Source: Syntrophorhabdales bacterium (GTDB taxonomy: Bacteria > Desulfobacterota > Syntrophorhabdia > Syntrophorhabdales > WCHB1-27). From it: 37,566 nt of DNA. Location of the stretch: contig DATKNH010000159.1 of assembly GCA_035541455.1 (NCBI GenBank), forward strand, positions 1-37,566, written 5' to 3'. The notes below the pieces were generated by a model, which did no database searches, was not told the DNA's origin, and saw only the letters and a list, made by a program, of their open reading frames with translations. The position numbers and the translations under genes were made by a program. Positions within the stretch are counted from its first letter, which is position 1, and each line of letters starts with the position of its first letter. Shown in pieces: positions 37,312 through 37,566 of this stretch.

Positions 37312-37421
37312 CCCGCATCCATTCAATTTCCTGCATCCCTTGTGTTAGTACGGCCACACAGAGGTCTTTGTTGCTCGTTGGCACGTCGATTGCATTCCCA
37401 AGTCCAGGGAGAATACTGCAC

Positions 37422-37566
37422 TTGCACTCAGCTGATAACCCCATCGCCAATCCTCACGTCGCGCTCCGCGAGGAATTCGACGACTGGGCCGTGATCTTTA
37501 ATCCTGATGCCGACTTCGGATTCGCCGCTTTCGGCCTGAATCCGACCGGCGTGTGCGTGTGGAAGC
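37422..37566 (+). CDS. PqqD-like protein resembling ScmD of the SynChlorMet cassette, 3' truncated
   Basis: The frame runs off the right edge. Visible residues include NPIANPHVALREEFDDWAV, IFNPDADFGFAAFG and LNPTGVCVWK, which match the N-terminus of PqqD-type peptide-binding proteins and most closely what I recall of ScmD, the PqqD homologue of the SynChlorMet cassette. PqqD proteins bind a ribosomal precursor peptide and hand it to a radical SAM/SPASM enzyme. No ATG or GTG precedes the conserved region in frame. The TTG at 37422 (after GGGAG, 10 bases) is my choice; CTG at 37416 or a TTG at 37368 are alternatives. The identification rests on about 45 residues. Confidence 0.7.
   Translation, partial: MHSADNPIANPHVALREEFDDWAVIFNPDADFGFAAFGLNPTGVCVWK

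Follow-up and report, generated by a model that had tools for sequence, protein, structure and literature searches.

The closest described relative of the locus studied here is SynChlorMet, represented in NCBIfam by the models TIGR04248 (ScmD), TIGR04249 (ScmC), TIGR04250 (ScmE), TIGR04251 (ScmF), and TIGR04252 (ScmA). The canonical cassettes have the gene order D-E-F-A-C on one strand; in other genomes, ScmD stands alone with a length of about 94 amino acids, and a separate small gene is found near ScmF and ScmC. The genome considered here conforms to this system in that ScmC, ScmE, and ScmF score well above cut-off and the ScmD domain at or near cut-off, and in the resemblance of the protein tails described below to the ScmA-like peptides of canonical cassettes. 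In contrast to those cassettes, ScmD and the precursor form one polypeptide here, and its many copies are scattered away from the single ScmE/ScmF pair and the single ScmC.

Several other peptide systems share parts of this machinery. Popov et al. 2026 (PMC13381572) showed for linear polyphosphorylated peptides (LPP) that a RiPP recognition element (RRE) brings the leader to a signal peptidase of the archaeal type, and that phosphate is added to the core by an HprK-like kinase. The features in common are the RRE, a YxxP-type leader motif, the archaeal-type signal peptidase, the HprK-like kinase, and an MsbA-like exporter, as well as an NTP transferase, which on the Scm side is seen in canonical Scm loci. 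However, LPP is described without radical SAM enzymes and with a discrete RRE, and of its extended leader motif YxxPxVLxHQxIxFETxxS only the YxxPxL part is recognizable here by inspection. RREs are known to recognise YxxP sequences (PMC12710340), and the discrete RREs of lasso peptide systems bind their leaders via an added strand beside beta3 (PMC5067487). The lasso B1 protein (a discrete RRE) and its leader correspond to the PqqD-type RRE and the YxxPxL motif of our proteins, whereas the core here is Cys/Gly-rich and the RRE is fused to the precursor; neither a lasso cyclase (macrolactam synthetase) nor a B2 peptidase was noticed in the regions read. Finally, Cys-rich cores together with radical SAM/SPASM enzymes, sometimes two, are shared with sactipeptides and ranthipeptides (ruminococcin C, thuricin CD, and PapB type). 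The RRE of these systems lies within the enzyme or is separate, in either case outside the precursor. Here, in contrast, it is within the precursor, and thioether formation is only presumed.

In the open-licence papers that we searched, RREs are separate small proteins or enzyme fusions; none of these papers describes an RRE in one chain with its own precursor, and no relevant paper names SynChlorMet or its model numbers.

The ScmD-type gene at the contig end and its paralogs

The window, that is, the whole stretch of DNA analysed, is the entire contig C159 of 37566 bases from an assembly of 3.9 Mb in 173 contigs (97% complete), and an ScmD-type frame runs off its end (Table 1). From its TTG codon the frame reads LHSADNPIANPHVALREEFDDWAVIFNPDADFGFAAFGLNPTGVCVWK. 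The PqqD-like N-terminus proposed by the sequence-only reading is present with all the motifs that were quoted for it, and its assignment to the ScmD family of SynChlorMet is supported by TIGR04248, which matches profile positions 1-38 of 84 with E 1.3e-13 and 51 bits, the gene being cut at position 38 and family membership being set at 100 bits or more over the 84-position model. The profile of the genus's own fused family (A4) gives 73.5 bits (E 1.7e-19, positions 37422-37565), and the frame aligns clearly with all eight complete fused paralogs tested; Pfam searches with the window fragment alone yielded no match.

Table 1. Features at the right end of the window (contig C159)
Feature	Position	Strand	Evidence
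Small HTH_17 (excisionase-like) gene, 85 aa	37054..37311	+	Pfam PF12728, E 3.8e-17
AGGGAG, possible ribosome-binding site, 10 bases upstream of TTG	37406..37411	+	Read from sequence
5' part of ScmD-type PqqD/RRE gene, 48 codons, cut by the contig end	37422..37566	+	TIGR04248; fused-family profile A4; paralog alignment

TIGR04248 matches six places in the genome, namely contigs C135, C43, C85, and C42, the window, and a fragment on C149; ScmD-type genes are at least six in number and are scattered over contigs. The complete paralogs score 111, 101, 101, and 95 bits against the cut-off of 100, and contain the Pfam domain PF05402 with E from 6e-11 to 1e-13. All four are fusions of 175-276 amino acids, in which a linker joins the ScmD domain to a YxxPxL leader motif that is followed by a Cys/Gly-rich tail. 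Their cores of 32-112 amino acids have 4-16 cysteines in uninterrupted frames, are hypervariable between paralogs, and are rich in C-x-x-G units about 10 residues apart. Neither ScmD nor ScmA was found as a stand-alone gene in this genome. On C149 (L033 1414-1912), the remnant of an IS110-type transposase breaks the gene off once about 38 residues of the domain have been encoded; this copy has a loop insertion in common with the window copy.

An assembly or frameshift artefact was rejected as the source of the fusions, because nine complete frames are open in three genomes and the tree described below supports a second origin. Profile searches found the missing 3' half of the window gene on no other contig of the assembly; since its tail is absent, we can only infer, by analogy with the four complete paralogs, all of which are fused, that the window copy is the N-terminal part of an ScmD-ScmA fusion. 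Overall, we consider it fairly probable that the window holds part of a sixth RRE-precursor fusion, which breaks off ahead of the core and whose product is modified in trans.

The small HTH gene reported immediately upstream is real. It was rejected as a member of the system: in the sister species (genome G001, contig C89), an MFS gene is followed by the HTH gene with no scmD after it. This syntenic pair makes the HTH gene an unlikely system member, probably a neighbour only, and places the window copy at a lineage-specific site. The missing scmD at the syntenic sister site, together with the non-ATG start and a 3-residue insertion in the ScmD domain, could also mean that this member of the fused family is broken or decaying, the more so as a similar insertion occurs in the interrupted C149 copy. 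We regard this as rather unlikely, as the frame stays open over all 48 codons, both conserved motifs (REEFDDWA and LNPTGV) are preserved, and the ribosome-binding site is plausible.

Fused tails and stand-alone ScmA-like peptides

The tails of the complete paralogs were compared with the small genes of canonical loci. A stand-alone ScmA-like gene occurs in 30 of 42 loci with ScmE, ScmF, and ScmC, mostly between or beside ScmF and ScmC, and follows the pattern M(n)-[YW]-x-x-P-x-L-...-G-x-C, then C-x-x-G units. In the stand-alone cores, the third residue after Cys is Gly in 77% of cases and the most frequent Cys-Cys spacing is 10; in the fused tails the corresponding values are 57% and, again, 10. 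When a profile of 22 stand-alone ScmA-like peptides from other genomes was run against the whole genome in six frames, the top three matches were the tails on C135 (2.7e-8), C85 (2.0e-7), and C42 (3.8e-4), followed only by noise. A profile of 47 stand-alone peptides scored the four tails of this genome at 35.0, 30.8, 22.1, and 8.9 bits, compared with 11.7 bits for the best of 1000 tail-shuffles and 7.0 for the best unrelated ORF. Thus three of the four tails are ScmA-like, while the tail on C43 (8.9 bits) is unconvincing by itself, because it falls below the best shuffle; a tail of the sister species (G001a) also matches weakly, at 11.3 bits. With a leader-only profile, the four fused proteins rank first among 520 ORFs.

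It is improbable that the Cys-rich tails extend ScmD for structure or metal binding, with the true precursors lying elsewhere. Although the weak ScmA matches of the C43 and G001a tails would fit such a role, the tails have the leader motif and C-x-x-G spacing of the stand-alone genes in canonical cassettes, and are as variable between paralogs as cores are. Moreover, no stand-alone ScmA-like gene turned up in the genome, the remaining matches looking like chance.

The existing model for the precursor, TIGR04252 (cut-off 35 bits), does not match the fused tails, and on the stand-alone precursors of canonical loci it gives about 22-24 bits at most, or nothing. It is too narrow for most ScmA-like precursors. 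Two weak matches found with it in the whole genome (on C123 and C27) were read as chance. The precursor of SynChlorMet, taken by the sequence-only reading to be unknown, is therefore not wholly so, as NCBIfam had already named an ScmA precursor; that reading still holds to the extent that the model recognises few of the precursors found here.

Elsewhere among the loci collected, several ScmA-like precursors and several copies of ScmC alternate in tandem (L123 9650-13799, L130 4518-11308, and L103 7345-10238), as if there were one ScmC per precursor. In a Nitrospirota genome, four ScmA-like precursor genes stand in tandem between ScmF and ScmC (L119 7761-9011).

Location of the SynChlorMet enzymes

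The presence of a SynChlorMet system in this organism is supported by the enzymes. ScmE (622 bits) and ScmF (613 bits; curated cut-offs 400 bits each) are adjacent on contig C160, and both contain the CX3CX2C motif; ScmC (305 bits; cut-off 125 bits) is on contig C78, where it adjoins a further archaeal-type signal peptidase. The archaeal-type signal peptidases retain Ser, His, and Asp in the expected motifs. A gene for an MsbA-like ABC exporter lies on the 5' side of ScmE. Above cut-off, this genome, 97% complete, has one ScmE, one ScmF, and one ScmC. ScmE and ScmF are oriented toward the left end of C160, with ScmF 2.3 kb from that end, and ScmC is 0.8 kb from the left end of C78. From this orientation and the exporter gene on the 5' side it follows that ScmD is not directly upstream of ScmE, and the canonical D-E-F order is disallowed. 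In the sister species, ScmF and ScmE are likewise adjacent, with no ScmD.

The complete ScmD-type paralogs on C135, C43, C85, and C42 have no ScmE or ScmF nearby. A search of the genome's contigs found no ScmE-family radical SAM match on C159, C43, C135, or C42, and on C85 such a match lies only at about 40 kb from the scmD-type gene. The end of the window is therefore not visibly the edge of a cassette, as had been suggested for it: the contig ends at 37566, ScmE/ScmF and ScmC are on two other contigs, and the complete paralogs are unlinked to them. It is very improbable that the window ends in an ordinary, unfused ScmD gene with a complete cassette following to the right, since the one-strand canonical order, the contig end, and the proximity of ScmF and ScmC to ends that could in principle be joined to C159 are outweighed by the direction of the ScmE/ScmF pair with the exporter behind it, by the fusion and lack of linkage of all four complete paralogs, and by the single copy of each enzyme in a nearly complete genome.

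Proposed mechanism, origin, and meaning of the fusions

For one of the sister-species fusions, AlphaFold2 gave a mean pLDDT of 87 in the leader-motif block, against linker values of 54-56 and core values of about 40, and for the Nitrospirota fusion the same pattern was observed, though weaker (72/65); the docking signal here consists of confidence only, with few fused rows. In a fold comparison of the sister-species model, the confident matches were all RRE structures, TbiB1 being the closest, and the top solved folds were lasso B1 proteins solved with their leaders. The models suggest that the leader motif docks in cis on the RRE.

The precedent of LPP, whose accessory set recurs in Scm loci beside two radical SAM enzymes, leads us to propose the following scheme. 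The RRE would bind the leader motif of its own chain, so that the protein is a self-presenting substrate, which the single ScmE/ScmF radical SAM/SPASM pair would recognise in trans and modify in its Cys-rich core. The modification would most likely consist of carbon-sulfur thioether links, the best guess for Cys-rich cores combined with SPASM enzymes. The HprK-like ScmC might then phosphorylate or otherwise tailor the product, the archaeal-type signal peptidase would remove the RRE-leader part, and the MsbA-like ABC protein encoded beside ScmE would export the product.

Strong ScmD matches were observed in 19 of 395 genomes of the phylum, and in that sample fused ones only in this genome. Among 79 loci across many phyla, the fusion was found in the sister species and in one Nitrospirota genome, where it adjoins ScmE and ScmF of that genome. 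In a tree of 84 ScmD domains, the eight complete fusions of the genus form one clade (support 100/99). The Nitrospirota fusion is placed elsewhere, among other Nitrospirota, and well-supported branches force two changes; the deeper branching is unsure, because the tree has few columns. Of the fusions in the sister species, three share a contig and one or two more lie on a second. On its contig C369 (L063 3522-8778), a partial duplicate of a neighbouring membrane-protein gene lies between the first and the second of three ScmD fusion genes, which suggests spread by segmental duplication.

We lean slightly towards the view that acquisition of the RRE in cis freed the precursors from the operon, that they then multiplied and scattered while one radical SAM pair modifies all of them in trans, and that this arrangement arose at least twice.

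The fusions serve as a Rosetta stone that links the ScmD domain with one particular class of Cys-rich peptides, and thereby point to an ScmA-like precursor family much broader than the existing model; a broader ScmA model than TIGR04252 would be useful. From the resemblance to LPP come candidates both for the leader peptidase and for what ScmC does. Finally, the fusion is a single-gene substrate, which would make the uncharacterised chemistry of SynChlorMet directly testable.
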